Shown here in pieces: positions 15,481-63,757 of a DNA stretch of 64,000 nucleotides; position 1 is the first letter of the stretch, and every line of letters begins with the position of its first letter. The position numbers and the translations under genes were made by a program. Under the pieces are notes generated by a model. That model made no database searches, had not been told where the DNA came from, and was given only the letters and a program-made list of their open reading frames with translations. Source of the stretch: Acidobacteriota bacterium (lineage in GTDB: Bacteria > Acidobacteriota > Vicinamibacteria > Vicinamibacterales > Vicinamibacteraceae); contig JADLFL010000023.1 of the NCBI GenBank assembly GCA_020845575.1, positions 1 through 64,000 of the forward strand, written 5' to 3'.

Positions 15481-15656
15481 ACCGGCAACCGGCAACCGGC
15501 AAGCCGGCAAGCCGGCAACCGGGATGAACTTCTTCCAGATGGAGGCCAGGGGCTTCAGCCCCTGGCTCCGACGAACGGGCTGAAGCCCGTTCGCTCAAGC
15601 ACGTAGTGTGATGGCCCTGTGTCCGGTTGCCGGTGGCCCATTGCCGGTTGCCGGAC
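15481..15656. repeat. spacer of two heptamer arrays flanking a double hairpin
   Basis: Directly after the plus-strand gene there is a CCGGCAA array (15481-15523), and directly after the converging minus-strand gene a TTGCCGG array (15621-15656). Between them lies a REP-like double hairpin: GCCAGGGG-CTTCA-GCCCCTGG around 15544-15564 and GAACGGGC-TGA-AGCCCGTTC at 15573-15592. The first hairpin resembles 51989-52023 and 56889-56918. Confidence 0.85.
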
Positions 15657-27334: not shown

Positions 27335-27370
27335 TCGGCAACCGGCAACGGGCAACCGGCAACCGGTTGG
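27335..27370. repeat. heptamer repeat after two converging genes
   Basis: Four CCGGCAA-type copies follow the plus-strand stop codon and end in a CCGGCAACCGGTTGG palindrome toward the converging minus-strand gene. Confidence 0.85.
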
Positions 27371-44530: not shown

Positions 44531-44776
44531 GGGGTTGCCGGCAACCGGCAACCCGGCAACGGGCAACCGGACGCACGCCTCCGGAACCCACATCGGTGTC
44601 GGCGCCGGGCCCGGAGGGCCTGCCCTACCTACCACGGATGGTTCCGGTTGCCCTGGCCTCCATCCGTCCGCTGCCCGGCGCTCGGTGCCGGTTGCCGGTT
44701 GCCGGGTTGCCGGTTGCCGGTTGCCGGCGCTCGGTGCCGGTTGCCGGTTGCCGGTTGCCGGTTGCCGGTTGCCGGC
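44531..44776. repeat. heptamer arrays filling the spacer before the TonB receptor
   Basis: A CCGGCAA array follows the stop codon (44531-44570); a larger TTGCCGG array (44671-44776, over ten units, with a block beginning CGCTCGGTGCCGG present twice) lies before the next gene. A REP-like GGGCCCGGAGGGCC element sits between. Within the 385-base spacer 44530-44914 I see no gene; the rest holds the Fur-like site. Confidence 0.9.
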
Positions 44777-47947: not shown

Positions 47948-48760
47948 TCAAGCGTTTCGCACGATCTCGACGCGAACGATTGCCCGTCCGAGGTGGATCT
48001 CGTCACCGGACCGCACGCGCACGCCGCGCGGATCGCGCCGCGGGACGGCGATGAGTTCGCCATCTCGCAGGATCGCCGTGCCGTTGCGGCTGCCCTCGTC
48101 GAACAGGCGGTAGTCGCCCGCCCCGTCGCGCTTCAGGCACGCATGCGCCCGGCCGACGGTCTCGTTCACGCCGTCGATCACGTCGTGGAACGCGAGGCGA
48201 TTCCGCCGGAGGTGTCCGTACCCGTCGCTGGGATCGACCGAGCGGCCAATGGACACCGTCGCCTCGCGGAAAGGACCCGCCACATCGGCGGTGCCGGCGA
48301 TCACGGTGATGACCAGTTCGCATCGCGCGAGCGACATCGCCGGGGATTCCGCGGTCTCCACGTCTGCGTCCGCCATCTCACCGTGTGCCTCACCCGCGAT
48401 GTCGAACAACTGTCCGTCGGCCCATTCGGCTGGCGCCTCGTCAACGCACGACGCGCGAACGACGAGGGCCGTCGGCACCTCGCAGCGCACTTCGGCGAGT
48501 CGTTCGCGAATGCGCGCGTCGAGTCCCTTCAGCGCCGCCGGGATCGCACTGCGCGCAGGAGCCAGGACACGGATGTCGAGCGCTCGCCAGGGGAACACGC
48601 GCCGGCCGCGGCCAACGGCCGGCGCCTGCCGCTCCACGGCGTCGAGGATGGCCTGCACGATCTCGATCGGCGTGGCACCCGGTCCGAGCGGCGCGTCGAA
48701 GAACGTGCGCAGGCGCGACTGGACATCCCTGCCGAACCCCGCGAGCGTACGTGCATCCAT
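47948..48760 (-). CDS. FhaA-like protein with DUF3662-type N-terminus and FHA domain
   Basis: The 270-residue protein starts with a DUF3662-like region (about 1-110; FFDAPLGPGATPIEIVQAI, VGRGRRVFPWRALDIRVLAP), then a linker and an FHA domain (about 170-265) with SIGRS, GRAHACL, DEGSRNGTAI and GDEIHLGRA. FHA domains bind phosphothreonine. The order of domains equals mycobacterial FhaA, which regulates cell-wall synthesis and is a substrate of PknB. It is the last gene of the signalling and cell-wall operon. A GTG at 48769 would add 3 residues. Confidence 0.88.
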   Translation of the reverse strand: MDARTLAGFGRDVQSRLRTFFDAPLGPGATPIEIVQAILDAVERQAPAVGRGRRVFPWRALDIRVLAPARSAIPAALKGLDARIRERLAEVRCEVPTALVVRASCVDEAPAEWADGQLFDIAGEAHGEMADADVETAESPAMSLARCELVITVIAGTADVAGPFREATVSIGRSVDPSDGYGHLRRNRLAFHDVIDGVNETVGRAHACLKRDGAGDYRLFDEGSRNGTAILRDGELIAVPRRDPRGVRVRSGDEIHLGRAIVRVEIVRNA

Positions 48761-48778
48761 GGCGATCACCCCCAAGCG

Positions 48779-48803
48779 GCCGGGCACCTGGCACCGGGCA
48801 CCG
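48779..48803. repeat. GGCACC heptamer-variant array
   Basis: Three GGGCACC-type units lie between the FHA gene and the RodA-PBP stop; on the gene's coding strand they read GGTGCCC, as expected before a gene. Confidence 0.75.
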
Positions 48804-48810
48804 AACGGCC

Positions 48811-51800
48811 TTACCGGGAACGAAGGGTTTCCGGTCCCTTCTCGAAGTACCCGAGGTCGCGCGCCGCGTCGACGATCGCGCCCGCCACGGGCGCCGCCGC
48901 ACGTGCGCCGTATCCGGCGTGCTCGACGATGACGGCGAAGGCGATGGGACGCGATCCACCGTATGGAGCGAAGCCGACGAACCACGAGTGCGCGGGCCGT
49001 CCGTCGACCTCGGCGGTCCCCGTCTTGCCGGCGATCGGCGTGGCGTTGCCCGCCAGCGTCTTGCCTGTTCCCACCTTCACCACCTCGCGCATGTCTCGCG
49101 CGAGGCGTGCCGCGTCGCTCTCGGCCAGGAAGCGCGGCGCGTCACCAGGCGCCACATCGTCTTCGAGCGTCCATCGCGCCGGGAGCGCAAGACCGCCGCC
49201 CGCGATCGACGCGACGACGCGCGCCATCTTCAGTGGAGAGACGAGTACCTCGCCCTGGCCGTAGCCGGCGTGCGGCAGCGTGTCGCGCAGGCGCTCGGCT
49301 GTCGCAGGTCGCGCCACGTCGATCTGGAACGTCGAGACGGCATCGAGGATCGGACGGGGGCCGAGCTGCATCGCAAGCTGCGCGAAATACGCGTTGCACG
49401 ACACCACGAGGCCTTTGTGCAGATCGACGGCGCCATGCGGCACGGTATCCATCACATCGTCACGCACGGGCCGTGACCAGCCGCGGATCTCGTGGCCCAC
49501 GCGCCCGTCCGGCAGTCGCACGCACAGGTGCGGAACCGTCTGCACCTCCGGACGACTGCGCAACGCTGCGGCGGCGACGAGCAGCTTGAACGTCGACCCT
49601 GGCGGGTACAGCCCGTACCGCACCCTGTCGAGCAGCGCATCCGCCGCGCGCGCACCATCGGTACTGGCGTCGGATGGTGTCACGCGAACCAGCCCGTTGG
49701 CCGACGCGTCTGGCATCGGATAACTGACAGACGCGAGCACGTCACCCGTCTCGACGTCGAGCACCACCGCCGCACCGCGAGCGTGGCCGCCGCGCTCGAT
49801 CGCCGACGCGAGCGCGTGAGCCGTCCGCTGCTGGAGTCGCGCGTCGAGCGCCACGTGCACGTCGCGCGGACGCCCCAGCAGCAACGCCACGTCGGACCGC
49901 GTCGAATCGGCCCCATGACGGACGAGCGGCAGCAGCGCCGAGTAGTCGCGTCTCACCGTGCGTTCGCGCGCACCCGTCCGTGGGTGCACCACCTCCACCA
50001 CCCGCTGCCCATCGTCGAAGCCCTTGAGCGTGGTGTCGTACTCGCGCTCGACGTACGACGCGTTGCGCGCCCCCCAGTTGGCCTGCGAGGCCCAGTCGCC
50101 AATCACGCCGAACGTCAGGGCACCGAGCGGATAGCAGCGCGGCGCGCCATCCGTACATGCGCGCGACCGTCCCGGCGACTCGCCTGCGGCGCGCATCTCC
50201 GACGGCCGGCTCGTTGCGAGCACCGCGCCGCGCCTGTCGTAGATCGTGCCGCGCTCGATGGCCCGCGCCGCGGCGACCAGACGCGGGTTGTACTCGAAGC
50301 GGTAGCCGCCATCGGCCTGCCCGCTCAGGCTCGACGCGCCGGCAATGGCATCGGCCTTCACCACCTGCACCCACGTCACGCGCAACGCCAGCACGCCGCC
50401 GACGACCGCCAGCACGACGCCGAGCACGCGCACGGGTTGCGCGAGATGCGCACGCACGTCGCCGCGTCGACGGGCGACGGCAAGGATGATGCCGACGGCG
50501 ACGCAGTTGGCGAGCATCGACGACCGGCCGTAGCTGAGGAACGGCGTCACCACCCCCGTGAGCGGCAGCAGGCCGAGCAATCCGCTCGCGATCACGGCCG
50601 CCTGCACGACGAGCGCGAGCGTGAGGCCAACGCCAAGCAGCGCGCTGTAGTCGCCGGGCGCGCGTACGGCGATGCGCAGGCACCGCCACGCGAGCAGTGC
50701 GAACAGCGCGACGACGGCAAGCACGCCGACGGCGCCGAACTGCTCGCCGAGCGCGGCGAGCACGAAGTCCGTGTGGCCTTCGGGGATCGACTGCGGACTG
50801 CCTGCACCCGGTCCGCTGCCCCAGAGTCCGCCTGTCGCGAGCGCCCACAGGCCATGCGCGATCTGGTTGCCGCCCGTCACGCCGTTGTTCCAGGGATCGG
50901 CCCAGATCCGCACGCGCTGCCCCACCGTTGCCGGGACGTCGATCGCATACGCCGCGGCGAAGCCGGCCGCCAGCATCGCCGTGCCGACGAACACGAATGC
51001 CAGGCGTCCGCGTGCGATCGCATACAGCGCGATCACCACGCCGGAGAGGACGAGCGCCGGTCCGAGATCCTTCTGGAGGAAGAAGAACGCCATCACGAGC
51101 AACATGCTCGCCACTACGGGACGCACGTCGCGCCATCGCGGCAGGCGCACGGCGCGCAGCCACGCGGGCTGTGCCGCCGGCGCTTCGTGCAGTTCGCGCA
51201 ACAGTTCGAATCGGCGCGCGAGCGCGCCGGCAATCGCAAAGACGACGAGCAGGCGGATCGCTTCGACGGGCTGTCCGCCGAAGAGGTTCACCTTCACGCC
51301 GCTCGTGCCGGGCCCGGACCCGAACAGGAGCAGCAGTACGGCAAGCAGCAGCGCGGCCGCGAGCGGCAGGAGCACGGTGTGGCGGAGCGGCGACGACTCA
51401 TAATCGAGCTCCGACGCAACGAGCAGCAGGGCGAGCCCGGCGGCGACGCCACTCGCGAACGTCGAGGCGATCATGGCGTCGCGCAACGGATCGCGCAGCG
51501 CGATCATCCCCATCAGGCCGATGCCGCACAGGAGCAGCAGCGTCGGCAGGACGATCGGGTCGTCGGTCGCGCCACGCCAGCGGCGCACGACGTGTGCGAT
51601 CCAGAAAGCCGCGACGAAAAGCGCGATCGCGCCGGCCAGCTGCCTGAGGTACGCGCTCGACGTCCTGACGGCGAGCGACGGCTTCAGCGCCGCCAGGTCC
51701 GCCGGCGACAGCAGACGGATCGGCCCTGTCGTCTCGCGCGCCGCCGCGCGCGCGCGCGCCTGCACTAGCCGGCTGTCGGCCTTGCGCTCGTCAGCCGTGA

Positions 51801-52167
51801 CTGTCACGCCAGCCAGACCACCGACGTGCTCCAGTGGATCGATCGTGTCAGTTGCGCGGCGATACAGGCGTTCCGCCACCGCCATTCGTTCGCGGTCGCT
51901 CTCGAACATCGTGAGCAGCGGGACGAGCGCCGCCGGCGACGCGAGGTCGTGCAGCACCGCCGGCGCTACGACCACGGATTGTTCTTTGGGGATGGAGGCC
52001 ACGGGCTTCAGCCCGTGGCGTCCTGCGATCGCCAAACCCACCCCGAACAACACGACAACCGTCGTCGCGAGGAGGCCGAGCATCTCCACGTTCGCCGCGC
52101 GCGTGGCGCCGGGCTGCGATGCTGCGGGCCGTCCCACGCGAGACGGCGTCGTCTGGATGATGCGCAT
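48811..52167 (-). CDS. RodA/FtsW polymerase fused to class B penicillin-binding transpeptidase
   Basis: The 1118-residue protein joins a SEDS glycosyltransferase (about 160-590; 10-12 helices; GLLPLTGVVTPFLSYGRSS) with a class B PBP (about 600-1118). The transpeptidase has S858-T-F-K, S923-C-N925 and K1048-T-G-T. SEDS enzymes polymerise peptidoglycan with a cognate bPBP, usually as separate proteins; here one polypeptide guarantees 1:1 pairing. An extra N-terminal stretch (1-160) with a membrane helix precedes the SEDS part, and a REP-like element is translated there (about residues 49-59). ATG 52167 overlaps the kinase stop (TGATG). The frame is open further upstream, but that part shadows the kinase gene. 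Confidence 0.95.
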   Translation of the reverse strand: MRIIQTTPSRVGRPAASQPGATRAANVEMLGLLATTVVVLFGVGLAIAGRHGLKPVASIPKEQSVVVAPAVLHDLASPAALVPLLTMFESDRERMAVAERLYRRATDTIDPLEHVGGLAGVTVTADERKADSRLVQARARAAARETTGPIRLLSPADLAALKPSLAVRTSSAYLRQLAGAIALFVAAFWIAHVVRRWRGATDDPIVLPTLLLLCGIGLMGMIALRDPLRDAMIASTFASGVAAGLALLLVASELDYESSPLRHTVLLPLAAALLLAVLLLLFGSGPGTSGVKVNLFGGQPVEAIRLLVVFAIAGALARRFELLRELHEAPAAQPAWLRAVRLPRWRDVRPVVASMLLVMAFFFLQKDLGPALVLSGVVIALYAIARGRLAFVFVGTAMLAAGFAAAYAIDVPATVGQRVRIWADPWNNGVTGGNQIAHGLWALATGGLWGSGPGAGSPQSIPEGHTDFVLAALGEQFGAVGVLAVVALFALLAWRCLRIAVRAPGDYSALLGVGLTLALVVQAAVIASGLLGLLPLTGVVTPFLSYGRSSMLANCVAVGIILAVARRRGDVRAHLAQPVRVLGVVLAVVGGVLALRVTWVQVVKADAIAGASSLSGQADGGYRFEYNPRLVAAARAIERGTIYDRRGAVLATSRPSEMRAAGESPGRSRACTDGAPRCYPLGALTFGVIGDWASQANWGARNASYVEREYDTTLKGFDDGQRVVEVVHPRTGARERTVRRDYSALLPLVRHGADSTRSDVALLLGRPRDVHVALDARLQQRTAHALASAIERGGHARGAAVVLDVETGDVLASVSYPMPDASANGLVRVTPSDASTDGARAADALLDRVRYGLYPPGSTFKLLVAAAALRSRPEVQTVPHLCVRLPDGRVGHEIRGWSRPVRDDVMDTVPHGAVDLHKGLVVSCNAYFAQLAMQLGPRPILDAVSTFQIDVARPATAERLRDTLPHAGYGQGEVLVSPLKMARVVASIAGGGLALPARWTLEDDVAPGDAPRFLAESDAARLARDMREVVKVGTGKTLAGNATPIAGKTGTAEVDGRPAHSWFVGFAPYGGSRPIAFAVIVEHAGYGARAAAPVAGAIVDAARDLGYFEKGPETLRSR
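51989..52023. repeat. REP-like hairpin inside the RodA-PBP gene
   Basis: ATGGAGGCCACGGGC-TTCA-GCCCGTGGC matches spacer elements at 15539-15570 and 56889-56918. Here it is read in-frame as the RodA-PBP segment RHGLKPVASIPK. Confidence 0.8.
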
Positions 52168-54179
52168 CAGGAGGGCCCTCGGGACGTGGCGGCGGCCAGT
52201 TCCTCGTCCACGCGCTTGACGTGGTCCTTGCAGATCTCGATGTTCTTCGCGGCGTTCGCGAAGCCGAGGATCGGCTCGAACGCCTCGATGCACGCCTCGA
52301 AGCTCGCACGCGCCCCTTCGAGCGCGTGCAGGCGTTCCTCCCCGGACACGTTGCGCGCTTCGCGCCGCAGCGTCTCGCCGCGCCGCATGTGCCCGTCCGC
52401 CAACTGCGCGCGTTCGCGACGGCCCGGCGTGTACCCGCGCTGCTGCGCGGCAGCCATCGCCTCCGACGCGAGGTCGACGTCGGCGGGCACGAGACCGTAG
52501 ACGGCCACGCGCGCGATTCCCAGGTACGGATCGAACGAGACCGCGTCGAGGCGACTCGCGGCCCTGAAGCGATCGATCGCGCGCCTGTAGGTGGCCTGCG
52601 TGGCCTCCGATCGCCCGGGACGATTGGAGATGCGGATGATGTGCGCGTCGCACAACTGAAGGCGAGCCCGCGCGATGCGATCGCCGGGCGACAACCGGAG
52701 TGCCCACAGCAGCGCGCGCTGCGCCTGCTTCCAGTCCGTGAGCGTGAGCGACGGCTGGTCGCTGCGGTAGTCCTCGATCACGCGATCGGCAAGACCCACC
52801 AGGTGCGACCGCAGCCGCCCGTTCACGCGCCAACGCAAACCCAGGTCGAGCGGCCCCGTCCTCGCCACATCGTCGTAATTCGCTTCGGCGGTCGCGAGCG
52901 TGGCGCCGTCGATGGCGGGCACCGCCGCGCGCAAGCGCTCGGCGCCGGCGCAGGCCACCGCTTCGCTCGTGACGGCATAGAGGGCGGCCAGCAATGCCGC
53001 CACGCGCAGCAGTCGGCGTATGCGACGCAGGCGTGGCCATCTCGTCGCACCCACCGCCGGCGAGGACGCCGGCGCGCCCGCCGCGTCCAGCGGCCGCGCA
53101 AGGGGCACATCCGCGACTGGCAAGGGCGGAGGTACGAATGGCAGCGGATCCGTCGCCGGAACCGGACCGACGGCCCGTACCGGCGACCCGGCCCACCCGA
53201 GTCCCACGGCCGCATCGTGCCACTCCTGATCGCGGCGTGTCGTCGGCTGATCGGCGTCGGCGTGGGGTGCCACGCGCGTGGTGGCGGGCGTGTCGTACTC
53301 GGCGAGCGCCATCGGCTCGCCACCTTCGAGGAAGGTCGCCAGATCGGCCTTGATGGCGGCGGCGCTGCCGTACCGTCGATCGGGCTGGTACGCGAGCAGC
53401 TTGTCGACGATCGCCGAGAGCGCGGCAGGCACCGCGACAGGCAGCGGCTCGCGCGGCGCGTTGCCGCGAATCGCGCGTTCGAGCTGGCTCTTGAAGGCGG
53501 GCGCCTGGAGGGTGCGGTAGGGCCTGTGCCCCGCCAGCATCTCGTAGAGCATGACGCCGACGGACCAGAAGTCGACGTGCTCGTCCACGCGGCCGTCGAT
53601 GAGACGCTCGGGCGACATGTACGCCGACGTTCCCCAGTTGTTCGTGGTGAGCGGCTTGGACTTGTCGAGCGCCTTCGCGATCCCGAAGTCGAGCACGATC
53701 ACGCCACCCGACGGCCTGACGAAGATGTGCCCCGGCTTCAGATCCGCGTGAACGAGGCGGTCATAGTGATCGCCTTCAATCGTGGTGGTGAAGCTGTGCG
53801 CGCGCTGGAGGAACGCGCAGATGGCCGCCGCGTGCCGCGCCGCGTCCAGTGGTGCCACAGCGCCCATCGCAATCGCGTCGGAGAGCGCTCCGCCCTGGAT
53901 CAACTCCATCGCGATGTAGAGGTCGCCGTCGCGGTCGTAGCCGACGTCGTACACCGCGGGCACCATGCCGTGGGCGTCGTGGAAGCTGCGCTGCAGCATC
54001 GCGCCGCGACGCTCGGCCTCGATACGCTCGGCGGCGTCTGCCGCGTGGTCGCGGAGCACCAGCTTCAACGCCACGCGCGCACCATCGGCCTTGCGCCGCG
54101 CCAGCCACACCGTGCCGAAGCTGCCCTGATCGAAGGGCTTGTCCGCATCGGTCTCGTAACCCGCCACCTGCCACGCCAT
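52167..54179 (-). CDS. Ser/Thr protein kinase with atypical catalytic loop and exported TPR-like domain
   Basis: The 670-residue kinase has an N-terminal kinase domain (1-290; DQGSFGTVW, K39, DFG 164-166, YMSPE). The catalytic loop reads H144-A-D-L-K-P-G-H151: the HxD and Lys are kept, but the canonical Asn that binds Mg is His. After a Pro-rich linker comes one membrane helix (about 385-410), then a helical domain with TPR-like spacing (about 420-670). PASTA domains, usual for PknB, are absent. It overlaps both neighbours by one base pattern (TGATG). With the phosphatase next door it should set phosphorylation of the FHA partners. Confidence 0.92.
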   Translation of the reverse strand: MAWQVAGYETDADKPFDQGSFGTVWLARRKADGARVALKLVLRDHAADAAERIEAERRGAMLQRSFHDAHGMVPAVYDVGYDRDGDLYIAMELIQGGALSDAIAMGAVAPLDAARHAAAICAFLQRAHSFTTTIEGDHYDRLVHADLKPGHIFVRPSGGVIVLDFGIAKALDKSKPLTTNNWGTSAYMSPERLIDGRVDEHVDFWSVGVMLYEMLAGHRPYRTLQAPAFKSQLERAIRGNAPREPLPVAVPAALSAIVDKLLAYQPDRRYGSAAAIKADLATFLEGGEPMALAEYDTPATTRVAPHADADQPTTRRDQEWHDAAVGLGWAGSPVRAVGPVPATDPLPFVPPPLPVADVPLARPLDAAGAPASSPAVGATRWPRLRRIRRLLRVAALLAALYAVTSEAVACAGAERLRAAVPAIDGATLATAEANYDDVARTGPLDLGLRWRVNGRLRSHLVGLADRVIEDYRSDQPSLTLTDWKQAQRALLWALRLSPGDRIARARLQLCDAHIIRISNRPGRSEATQATYRRAIDRFRAASRLDAVSFDPYLGIARVAVYGLVPADVDLASEAMAAAQQRGYTPGRRERAQLADGHMRRGETLRREARNVSGEERLHALEGARASFEACIEAFEPILGFANAAKNIEICKDHVKRVDEELAAATSRGPS

Positions 54180-55807
54180 CAGCGGTCCCCACCGGCGCGG
54201 CGCGTCTCGTCAGGACGAGCATGCACCACCACGTTGTCTGTCCGAACTGCGTCGCGCTCTGGTGCCGACAGGCCGGCGACCGGCGACGGACCGAACCCGA
54301 CGAACGCATTCCTGCGCAGCACCGCCGATGCACCCGCGTGCAGGACGATGGCCGAGACGTCTGGTGCGGGTCCAGGTGCTGGCGCGGACTGGCGGATGAA
54401 GATGCTGTCCGATGCTTCGAGCCTGCTGCGATCGCGCAGCGCGACCGCGGTGCCGGGTCCCGAGACATGCGTGCCCATCAGCGTGGCCGATGCGTCCGGC
54501 AGCAGTTCCACGGCCGCCCGCCTCGCGCCGTCGATCTGGAGCAGTTCGATCGCCCGCCCCTGCCCGCTCAGCCTGATGCCGACATCCACGGGTGCGTCGT
54601 CTGTCGACACGATGCGGACGCCGCTGATGGCGCCGCCGGCGGGTCCGCCCGCGACGATGGCGGTCCAGTCGCCGCTGGCCGTCGACGGACGCACGAAGAT
54701 CGACGCACCGGGCACGCGCGCGCGAAGCGACACGCCGTCCGGCACGTCGACGGACTCGGCGTACGTACCGGGCTCGAGACGGATCACATCGCCCGGACGC
54801 GCGTCGTGCACGGCGGTGGCCAGGCCGGCGACGGTGTCGGATGCCACGGCCGCGGCAACGATCGTGCGACCACCGACCGGCGGCGCAATCGACAGTCGCC
54901 ACACAGCGAGCAGTGCGGCAGCAAGACCGACGAGCACGCCGAGCACGAACCAGGTCGCGCGACCACCGGTGCCGCGCGTGTGCGTGTCGTCGTCAGCCGT
55001 CCGCGAAATCTGCGCCGGCAATGTGGAAGCGGACTCGGCCAGCCGGCGCGCGAATCGCGGCCCTTCGGCATAGACCACCGTCACGTTGTCGCGTCCACCG
55101 GCATCATTGGCCGCCGCTACGAGCGCCTCCGTCACGGCCTCGACGTCGCCCGCGTGCGCGCGCACCACGCTGTCGATCGTCGTCGCCGGCACCATGTCCG
55201 TGAGCCCATCGCTGCACACCAGCACCGCCGCATCGTCTTCGAACGTGGTCTCGACAACCTCTACGTAGTCGGGCTCGTCCTTGTCGCGCAGCGCGCTGCC
55301 CACGTCGCGAAACACTTCGTGCCGGCGCGGGTGGCGCATCGCGGCGAGTTCGTCGAGCTCGCCCGCGTCTTCACGTTCGCCGATCGGCGAGTGATCGTGC
55401 GTGAGCTTCACGACGCCGCCGGCGCCGATCTTGTACAGGCGACTGTCGCCGACATGGCCGATCGTGAGGTGTCCGCCGGCCACGAGCGCGATAGTGGCCA
55501 CGCACGTCATGCCGGTGAGATCGGGCGATGCCGACGCGCGACGGTAGATCTCGTTGTTCGCCAGGGCGATCGCTTCCCTGACGCGCTCCGACGGCGTGCC
55601 GAGCGGACGCGCAAGACGCTGGAGGATCACCTCGCGCGCGATGGCGGCCGCCGTCTCGCCGGCGGCGTGTCCACCCACGCCGTCGATCACGCCGACGATC
55701 CCGCGCTCGCGATCGAGCACCGGCAGATCCTCGTTGTTGGTGCGCACGCGTCCTGCGTCGGACCGCGACGAGGCCGCGAACGCCGTGCCGATCGTCGCGT
55801 CAGCCAC
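54179..55807 (-). CDS. PP2C phosphatase with membrane helix and predicted exported beta-helix domain
   Basis: The 542-residue protein has a full PP2C domain (1-250; RTNNED 22-27, DGVGGH 42-47, DSRLY, SDGLTD and GGRDNVTVV), a membrane helix (about 284-304) and a C-terminal domain of about 235 residues that looks like a pectate-lyase-type right-handed beta-helix (IVAAAVASDTVAGL, VIRLEPGTYAESVDVPDGV). Mycobacterial PstP has a phosphatase plus one helix, but only a short tail. The beta-helix would face the periplasm and could sense glycan. GTG 55807 is the start; the small peptide gene stops 5 bases inside it, and the stop overlaps the kinase ATG. Confidence 0.92.
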   Translation of the reverse strand: MADATIGTAFAASSRSDAGRVRTNNEDLPVLDRERGIVGVIDGVGGHAAGETAAAIAREVILQRLARPLGTPSERVREAIALANNEIYRRASASPDLTGMTCVATIALVAGGHLTIGHVGDSRLYKIGAGGVVKLTHDHSPIGEREDAGELDELAAMRHPRRHEVFRDVGSALRDKDEPDYVEVVETTFEDDAAVLVCSDGLTDMVPATTIDSVVRAHAGDVEAVTEALVAAANDAGGRDNVTVVYAEGPRFARRLAESASTLPAQISRTADDDTHTRGTGGRATWFVLGVLVGLAAALLAVWRLSIAPPVGGRTIVAAAVASDTVAGLATAVHDARPGDVIRLEPGTYAESVDVPDGVSLRARVPGASIFVRPSTASGDWTAIVAGGPAGGAISGVRIVSTDDAPVDVGIRLSGQGRAIELLQIDGARRAAVELLPDASATLMGTHVSGPGTAVALRDRSRLEASDSIFIRQSAPAPGPAPDVSAIVLHAGASAVLRRNAFVGFGPSPVAGLSAPERDAVRTDNVVVHARPDETRRAGGDR

Positions 55808-55892
55808 GGTCGTACGTCCGCGCCAGCCAGCCGAGCCACGCCACGGTGGCCACGAGTGCCAGCAGGAAAAGAGACTGCAGTGCCGCGAGCAT
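55800..55892 (-). CDS. 30-residue single-helix membrane peptide in the signalling operon
   Basis: A complete ATG-to-TGA frame encodes 30 residues: MLAALQS, one hydrophobic helix (about 8-23, with two Trp), and a short polar tail RTYDRG. Its ATG overlaps the FHA stop (TGATG at 55890-55894), and its stop lies 5-8 bases inside the phosphatase start. Every other junction in this operon is of the same overlapping kind, which supports real translation. Function is unknown; single-helix peptides often regulate membrane kinases or polymerases. Confidence 0.65.
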   Translation of the reverse strand: MLAALQSLFLLALVATVAWLGWLARTYDRG

Positions 55893-56818
55893 CAGACCAG
55901 CGCCTCGAAGTCGAAAGTGACGATGCCGGCCAGACCGATGCGCGCGCGGGCGGGCAACGGGAACTCGGGGCCGGGTCGGGCCACGCCCTCGGGTCCCTTC
56001 ACGGCCGGCGGGACAGGCGTGTCGTCGACGGTGGTGCCCCAGAGGCTGACGTCCTGCACGAAGAACGTGCCATCGGCGCCGAGACCGATCCTGACGTGCT
56101 CGCGCGAGACGCGCGGCGTCGCCATCACCTGCACGTCCACCCACACGGCGCTGCCGCCGCGTCCGATGGCAATCGTGTCCTTACGCATCACGAAGGTGTG
56201 CGTGCCGCGATCGTCGCGATACGTGAGGCGCGCCCTGTCGCGGCCGCCGCGTACGTCGGTCGTCCTGACGTCGCCGGCTGGCGGCGCGCCTGGCAGTGGC
56301 CGCGGCACTCCAGCGGCGGGGGGCGCAACAGGTGCGGCAACGGGCTCGTGCGTCACTGTCGCCGTCCGTCCAGACGCGCCGACCACGCTGCGCACGATGC
56401 GCGTGGTGGGCGTGCCGGCGTACTCCACGGGCGCGGGCATCGCGAGCGTGGAGACGATGCCGATCTGGCCGCGCGCGAGCTCGCCGTCGGGATCCTGGCG
56501 GATGTGGACCTCCCATCCGCCAGGCGGCACCTCGATGGGCGCAAGCCTGTCGCGCTCGAGCAGGCGCGCCATGATGGTCTTCACGCGCCCGTCCATCCCG
56601 CGGTTCAGGCGTGCGACTTCCTCGGTGAGGGCCTGCTTCACCTGATCCGCCACGGCAGCCGACACGCCGGCGATGGCCTCGTGGTCCTCGGGGTGCAGGT
56701 AGACGTGATAGATGGTCGGCGCGAGCGTGCTGTACGGCAGCGCGTACAGGTTGAGTGACAGCTCCTCCCGGACCGCCCGCCAGATGTCGCGCCCACTCGG
56801 TGCCTTCACCGTCGTCAT
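55892..56818 (-). CDS. FHA-domain protein, first gene of the signalling and cell-wall operon
   Basis: The 308-residue protein has an N-terminal DUF3662-like helical region (1-130; LNLYALPYSTLAPTIYHVYLH), a Pro/Ala linker and a C-terminal FHA domain (about 215-305) with AIGRGG, RVSREHVRI and FVQDVSLWGTTVD. ATG 56818 is supported by GGGAGGAA 5 bases upstream. It probably binds phosphothreonine on the kinase or polymerase. The promoter is probably in 56819-57048, which it shares with the divergent winged-helix-FHA gene. Confidence 0.88.
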   Translation of the reverse strand: MTTVKAPSGRDIWRAVREELSLNLYALPYSTLAPTIYHVYLHPEDHEAIAGVSAAVADQVKQALTEEVARLNRGMDGRVKTIMARLLERDRLAPIEVPPGGWEVHIRQDPDGELARGQIGIVSTLAMPAPVEYAGTPTTRIVRSVVGASGRTATVTHEPVAAPVAPPAAGVPRPLPGAPPAGDVRTTDVRGGRDRARLTYRDDRGTHTFVMRKDTIAIGRGGSAVWVDVQVMATPRVSREHVRIGLGADGTFFVQDVSLWGTTVDDTPVPPAVKGPEGVARPGPEFPLPARARIGLAGIVTFDFEALV

Positions 56819-56830
56819 CAGGTTCCTCCC

Positions 56831-56953
56831 GGCCGGCAATCGGCAACCCGGCAACCGGAACAACTGCGCCGCGTAGCGGATCTCGAAAATGGAGGCCAGG
56901 GGCGTCCGCTCCTGGCGCCAACCGGTTGCCCGTTGCCGGTTGCCAGTTGCCGG
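56831..56953. repeat. heptamer arrays around a REP hairpin between divergent genes
   Basis: The left array (56831-56859, CCGGCAA) reads TTGCCGG toward the minus-strand FHA gene; the right array (56921-56953, TTGCCGG) reads so toward the plus-strand gene. A REP-like hairpin (GCCAGG...CCTGGC, 56889-56918) lies between. A -10-like TACTAT follows at 56979-56984. No gene lies in 56819-57048. Confidence 0.85.
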
Positions 56954-57048
56954 ACCCACGTCACCGGTCCTCGTCGGGTACTATGCACCGGACGCTGCGG
57001 CGAAGTCCCAAGGGAATCCCAAGGATTCCATCGCCAGGCGAAACGCGC

Positions 57049-57714
57049 ATGCGGGTTGCCTTCGGACGCTTCACCTTCGATTCGGACACACGCGAACTGC
57101 TCGACGCGGGTGCGCGCGTCCACCTGTCGCCCAAGGCGTTCGATCTCCTGGCGCTCCTGCTCGAACGCCGGCCCGCCGTGGTCAGCAAGCGCGACATCCA
57201 CGACCGCGTGTGGCGCGACACGTTCGTCAGCGAGGCCAGCCTCAGCGTCGTGATCGCGGAGATCCGCCAGGTGCTCGGCGACGACTCACGGCAGTCGGCG
57301 TTCGTCCGCACCGTCCACCGCGTGGGCTACGCCTTCAGCGGTCCGGCGCAGACGCTCGCCGCGCCGCGCGCAGACCAGGGTCCGGCGACGCCGCTGTGCT
57401 GGCTCGTGTATCAGGACAGAGCCATCCCGCTCACGCCGGGCGAACACGTCATCGGACGCGATCCGCGCTGCGCCGTGTGGGTCGACGCATCCGGCGTCTC
57501 CCGTCGCCATGCGCGCGTCGACGTGGGCGCAGACGCCACGCTCGTCTGCGACCTCGATTCGAGCAACGGTACTTTCGTCGCCGGCCAGCGCGTCACCACG
57601 CCCCGCCCGCTCGCCGACGGCGACATCCTCGAACTCGGCGCCGCCACCCTCACCTACCGCGCCTGGTCCGACGGCACCGGCGCCAGAACGGAACGCGTCG
57701 CCCGACGGTCGTAG
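57049..57714 (+). CDS. winged-helix transcription factor fused to an FHA domain
   Basis: The 221-residue protein has an OmpR/PhoB-type winged helix (about 1-100; LSPKAFDLLALLLERRPAVV, then RTVHRVGYAF) and a C-terminal FHA domain (about 120-210; VIGRDPRCAV, SRRHARV, DLDSSNGTFV). This joins DNA binding to phosphothreonine reading, as in mycobacterial EmbR, although the BTAD part of EmbR is missing. It diverges from the kinase operon, so the kinase may control transcription through it. ATG 57049 puts the winged helix at the N-terminus. Confidence 0.93.
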   Translation: MRVAFGRFTFDSDTRELLDAGARVHLSPKAFDLLALLLERRPAVVSKRDIHDRVWRDTFVSEASLSVVIAEIRQVLGDDSRQSAFVRTVHRVGYAFSGPAQTLAAPRADQGPATPLCWLVYQDRAIPLTPGEHVIGRDPRCAVWVDASGVSRRHARVDVGADATLVCDLDSSNGTFVAGQRVTTPRPLADGDILELGAATLTYRAWSDGTGARTERVARRS

Positions 57715-63724: not shown

Positions 63725-63757
63725 CCGGTTGCCCGTTGCCGGTTGCCGGTTGCCGAC
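63725..63757. repeat. heptamer repeat TTGCCGG after the converging DapA-family gene
   Basis: About four units lie between the two converging genes; on the minus strand, following the gene that ends at 63760, they read CCGGCAA. Confidence 0.85.

Follow-up and report, generated by a model that had tools for sequence, protein, structure and literature searches.

A rearranged homologue, lacking PASTA domains, of the actinobacterial fha-pstP-rodA-pbpA-pkn locus probably encodes a phospho-controlled third SEDS-bPBP synthase in Acidobacteriota

A six-gene cluster in a 64,000-nucleotide stretch of an Acidobacteriota genome (assembly GCA_020845575.1, contig JADLFL010000023.1, positions 1 to 64,000, hereafter the window) is very likely a rearranged homologue, devoid of PASTA domains, of the actinobacterial locus fhaA-fhaB-pstP-rodA-pbpA-pkn. 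To judge from its sequence, it would supply a diderm bacterium with a third cell-wall synthase composed of a SEDS protein and a class B penicillin-binding protein (bPBP), controlled by protein phosphorylation. The linkage of pstP, rodA, pbpA and a kinase gene has been described for Actinobacteria and in parts for Firmicutes (PMC6554272), and the proteins of the mycobacterial locus have been tied to growth, division, wall synthesis and lipid II flipping (PMC6554272, PMC11898655). Literature searches for an acidobacterial version of this linkage returned nothing relevant.

The cluster lies entirely on the minus strand, from position 56818 to 47948, in the order FHA1, a membrane microprotein, a PP2C phosphatase, a Ser/Thr kinase, a SEDS-PBP fusion and FHA2, with the Pfam domains FHA, PP2C, Pkinase, FTSW_RODA_SPOVE plus Transpeptidase, and FHA following one another in that sequence. 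A preliminary description of the window had listed the six genes in this order, and all six open reading frames (ORFs) are present as described. It had also assigned a TGATG pattern to most junctions between FHA1 and the polymerase gene, in agreement with the 1-nt overlaps of this type found at FHA1/microprotein, PP2C/kinase and kinase/SEDS-PBP, the remaining microprotein/PP2C junction being an 8-nt overlap (GTGGCTGA). The SEDS-PBP and FHA2 genes are separated by a 50-nt gap. These overlaps couple the genes concerned translationally.

Shared ancestry with the actinobacterial locus is shown by the adaptor proteins and by the polymerase. FHA1 (55892-56818, 308 aa) is a FhaA-like phosphothreonine adaptor combining a FhaA_N domain (PF12401) with an FHA domain, as supported by Pfam, orthologue matches and hhalign. 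Its FhaA_N match reaches 26.2 bits against a curated cut-off of 25, recurs in 11 of 12 FHA1 orthologues (E up to 0.01) and is accompanied by an hhalign value of 97% against the N-termini of actinobacterial FhaA. FHA2 (47948-48760, 270 aa) carries, according to hhalign, a divergent FhaA_N-like domain before its FHA domain; this N-terminal domain is not called FhaA_N by Pfam, and profile comparison with actinobacterial FhaA N-termini gives 94.5%, while unrelated control profiles remain below 1%. Direct comparison of the FHA1 and FHA2 profiles aligned the FHA parts only. Two other genomes (G107 and G118) hold four FhaA_N-FHA proteins each (L086-L088, L099, L100, L104), and several of these loci, having no SEDS, PP2C or kinase matches, are possibly orphan FhaA paralogues.

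The polymerase gene (48811-52167, 1118 aa) encodes in a single ORF an N-terminal transmembrane (TM) and periplasmic extension (aa 1-179), a SEDS glycosyltransferase (aa ~180-575) and a class B PBP transpeptidase (aa ~576-1112), as assigned from Pfam, motifs and trees. The catalytic motifs are all intact, comprising the SEDS PEGHTD Asp, which corresponds to Asp262 of Escherichia coli RodA (PMC10449877), and the SxxK, SxN and KTGT motifs of the PBP, the PBP_dimer domain being largely unrecognised by Pfam. The chemistry is that of the canonical RodA-PBP2 elongasome and of FtsW-FtsI, whereas the SEDS lineage is separate. In a maximum-likelihood tree of 98 sequences, a branch with 100/100 support parts the locus-type SEDS proteins, including that of the window, from every canonical RodA and FtsW, and the window protein groups with neither RodA nor FtsW of its own phylum. 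The canonical set consisted of 40 RodA/FtsW sequences from Acidobacteriota, two Actinomycetes, Rubrobacter, one Firmicute and E. coli. Since the sequences from actinobacterial loci had been selected by likeness to the window protein, mostly to its PBP part, canonical actinobacterial sequences were added to offset this bias; the split is likewise 100/100 without the added canonical actinobacterial and Firmicutes sequences. The PBP tree agrees on the canonical split (93), and the best class B PBP match of the transpeptidase profile in the PDB is M. tuberculosis PbpA. With few exceptions, the best non-acidobacterial relatives of the fusion are rodA-pbpA pairs from actinobacterial, Firmicutes and Chloroflexi loci, many of which are preceded by FHA-FHA-PP2C and followed by a kinase. 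Elsewhere, the genome of the window also carries mreBCD-pbp2-rodA and, in a dcw cluster, ftsW, so that the fusion constitutes a third, accessory SEDS-bPBP polymerase.

The phosphatase (54179-55807, 542 aa), annotated from Pfam, NCBIfam and a structure model, comprises a PP2C domain (aa ~16-247), a TM segment (aa ~285-304) and an ectodomain (aa ~315-530). The catalytic domain is of the Stp1 type in NCBIfam, with a score below the NCBIfam cut-off; its metal-binding Asp residues are intact, and M. tuberculosis PstP (1txo) ranks first in a structure search with its model. The region following the TM segment is predicted to form a right-handed beta-helix, modelled mostly at a predicted local distance difference test score of 80-93. 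Of 12 family members, 5 match Pfam Beta_helix and 6 match DUF1565, and the ectodomain weakly matches PL6 lyases and a pectinesterase. The exported phosphatase domain of the preliminary description is thus sustained as a prediction.

Between FHA1 and the phosphatase lies a 30-aa, single-TM microprotein (55800-55892), annotated from its conserved position, which occupies the slot of FhaB and overlaps both neighbours. In 17 of the 18 inspected clusters, FHA1 is followed by such an ORF, 29-37 codons or slightly longer and containing a single hydrophobic stretch, which overlaps the FHA1 stop and usually also the PP2C start. In the actinobacterial locus this position between fhaA and pstP is held by FhaB, with an N-terminal TM segment and an FHA domain, whereas the microprotein has the TM segment without the FHA domain. 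Comparison with the FhaB TM segment gave an hhalign value of 51%, and a position-specific scoring matrix performed better than TM controls (area under the curve, 0.86 and 0.72), neither being decisive. Descent of the microprotein from FhaB was therefore not accepted, the profile similarity being suggestive rather than proof. Codon counts in close microprotein pairs show no strong purifying selection, and the case for the gene rests on its conserved position, length and overlaps.

The kinase (52167-54179, 670 aa) is described by Pfam and a structure model as a kinase domain (aa ~18-283), a low-confidence linker, one TM helix (aa ~382-422) and an all-helical, TPR-like outside domain (aa ~428-666), with the VALK Lys, the catalytic Asp and the DFG motif intact. 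Domain searches of the kinase gave no PASTA match, as the preliminary description had stated. Elsewhere in the genome, PASTA matches occur at C52:97469-97597, in a 918-codon ORF on the contig with the dcw ftsW, and at C13:44486-45082, in a 248-codon ORF; none falls on any inspected kinase. The 918-codon ORF may be FtsI.

The arrangement is conserved among relatives. A kinase search of 60 relatives recovered orthologues of full or nearly full length in 12 further genomes, and all 11 relatives with enough flanking sequence retain the order FHA1-PP2C-kinase-SEDS::PBP-FHA2, within the reach of their contigs. Within the taxonomic order, 12 genomes from 5 families, including that of the window, therefore share the order, and its recurrence in the 11 others and in loci of other classes of Acidobacteriota is not attributable to chance. 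The spread is patchy: a FHA1 orthologue (E <1e-80) is found in 25 of the 162 genomes of the taxonomic order, in six families, and fused SEDS-PBP matches occur in 8 of 297 genomes of a phylum sample. When 84,980 species genomes were scanned, further records emerged from Thermoanaerobaculum, Acidobacteriia, gp3, Bryobacteraceae and Acidobacteriaceae, and in G107 the cluster genes stand in a different order. A window-type SEDS-PBP with FHA2 was also encountered in a metagenome-assembled genome assigned to Rhodothermales (L108, JALSSK010000384.1), reflecting either transfer or misbinning. In another acidobacterial family, a very divergent SEDS-PBP fusion (L082, G114:C1:4192000-4210000), which forms the longest branch of the SEDS tree, is preceded by a PP2C gene and followed by a large ORF that weakly matches a kinase.

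Set against fhaA-fhaB-pstP-rodA-pbpA-pknA-pknB, the cluster shares a leading adaptor with FhaA_N and FHA domains, a PstP-type PP2C with a TM segment, a Ser/Thr kinase, and a SEDS protein of the locus lineage followed by a PbpA-like transpeptidase. FhaB, with its TM segment and FHA domain, and the PASTA kinase PknB (and PknA) are absent from the cluster. Unlike the actinobacterial locus, the cluster has a single kinase, placed before the polymerase, carries TPR-like and beta-helix ectodomains and no PASTA, ends with a second FhaA-like gene at its 3' end, and has a fused polymerase with an additional N-terminal TM and periplasmic part. A second acidobacterial cluster (L078, L081, L095), in another group of the phylum, presents the same six functions in the unfused order FHA-PBP-SEDS-PP2C-kinase-FHA; its FHA proteins carry FhaA_N, and its SEDS falls among the locus-type sequences in the tree. 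It differs in having separate and reversed PBP and SEDS genes and its own kinase and SEDS clades, the fused kind being found in other genera. Natural SEDS-PBP fusions have been noted (PMC10449877). In Coriobacteriia (L115, L118, L119, L122, L123, L125), SEDS and PBP likewise share one ORF, of 925-960 codons in most, within the order FHA-FHA-PP2C-(SEDS-PBP)-kinase and without an N-terminal extension. This fusion is nested among unfused actinobacterial relatives, which points to a separate fusion event. The preliminary description was right about the fused polymerase and about a Ser/Thr-phosphorylation module coupled to SEDS-PBP and related, in changed order, to the mycobacterial locus, as the Pfam content, the FhaA_N domain and the SEDS tree bear out; the fusion is not peculiar to this lineage, being present in the Coriobacteriia too. 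The preliminary description overlooked FhaA_N on FHA1, the FhaA_N-like domain on FHA2, the PP2C beta-helix and the divergent regulator described below, and its expectation of conservation in relatives is borne out, albeit patchily.

Its formula of an "independent or strongly rearranged" version holds in the second half only. Convergent assembly, in which an acidobacterial kinase-PP2C-FHA module captured and fused a canonical RodA-PBP2 pair, would account for the different gene order, the missing PASTA domains and a kinase closer to other acidobacterial kinases than to PknB (with weak support, in a set chosen by similarity), but it is very improbable and was rejected in view of the FhaA_N domain and the separation of the SEDS protein from canonical RodA and FtsW; fusion within a locus of actinobacterial type in Coriobacteriia also speaks against it. 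Still less credible, to the point of near dismissal, is a type VI secretion module (PppA-PpkA-Fha) or an anti-phage kinase module that adjoins a polymerase gene by chance. The enzyme trio is the same and the kinase domain does match kinase-only defence profiles, but these matches are limited to the generic kinase domain, the type VI secretion FHA family (TagH, TIGR03354) is unmatched on FHA1 and FHA2, the sole weak FHA-domain match being the neighbouring regulator, and the polymerase gene is coupled in translation and keeps its place in relatives. With no family match beyond the generic kinase domain, this explanation was also rejected.

Several observations nevertheless weigh against the rearranged-homologue reading or its signalling part. 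FHA2 of the window has Gly in place of the phosphothreonine-binding Ser (VGRAH), FHA1 lacks the NGT Asn, the HRD Arg is missing throughout the kinase family, and in the subclade of the window His replaces the Asn of the catalytic loop, changes that make it more likely that parts of the signalling are weak or altered; the PBP tree, moreover, does not settle the deep order. In the kinase tree, the catalytic domain falls apart from PknA/PknB, so that the kinase may have been swapped in and may have different targets. An even chance is assigned to the proposal that the kinase of a homologous locus was replaced by a local acidobacterial one, with signal and targets new and polymerase and adaptors inherited. 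The window-family kinases form one clade (100) outside the PknB clade of actinobacterial loci and nearer other acidobacterial kinases, and their ectodomain is TPR-like. Foldseek ranks PknB/PknA first for the kinase structure, a result that largely reflects which bacterial kinases have structures. Conversely, the backbone of the kinase tree, built on a comparison set picked by similarity, is weakly supported (59-86), and fast divergence could mask a PknB origin.

As to function, the module most likely serves conditional wall synthesis (in stress, resting cells or repair) rather than basic growth, because its spread is patchy and the canonical machines are present. A growth polymerase for routine elongation or septation is an unlikely alternative: effects on growth and division are described for the actinobacterial counterpart (PMC6554272), but mreBCD-pbp2-rodA and the dcw ftsW are encoded in the same genome and the cluster is absent from most relatives.

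Under the rearranged-homologue reading, the homology and the control of the polymerase are more certain than any one of the finer signalling steps. The membrane-spanning kinase, whose periplasmic part is TPR-like instead of PASTA, would phosphorylate Thr on itself, on the FHA proteins and/or on cytosolic parts of the SEDS-PBP protein. FHA1 and FHA2 would read phosphothreonine through their FHA domains and, via FhaA_N, recruit or switch either the polymerase or the supply of lipid II to it, while the PP2C phosphatase would remove the marks and its periplasmic beta-helix may bind glycan. The microprotein would retain the membrane-anchor role of FhaB, keeping phosphatase and polymerase together. 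A bolder extension, in which wall sensing has moved from the kinase PASTA domains to a glycan-binding PP2C beta-helix and the microprotein replaces FhaB as an obligate subunit, giving a third, separately switched polymerase, is put forward only tentatively and is somewhat doubtful.

Beside the cluster, a winged-helix (Trans_reg_C) and FHA regulator, identified by Pfam, is encoded divergently at 56755-57714 on the plus strand; its start codon is uncertain, relatives beginning ~70-100 codons further in, and it is present in 7 of 12 loci. With an FHA domain on a DNA-binding protein, it resembles EmbR-type logic and is a possible phosphorylation target of the kinase in the cluster. Many intergenic tandem heptamer arrays occur in the window (44690-44770, 56925-56945, 27337-27357, 15484-15510, 63728-63748, 48783-48796), of the GGCAACC / GGTTGCC type or, at 48783 and 28975, of the GGTGCCN type, one array lying immediately upstream of FHA1 and another ahead of FHA2.

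That a diderm phylum has the FhaA domain and this SEDS lineage as well suggests a polymerase module under phospho-control that is more widespread and older (or transferred), able to run with other kinases and sensors. The acidobacterial cluster offers a natural experiment to separate indispensable parts (the FhaA domain, PP2C and SEDS-PBP) from exchangeable ones (PASTA, the FHA domain of FhaB and gene order).

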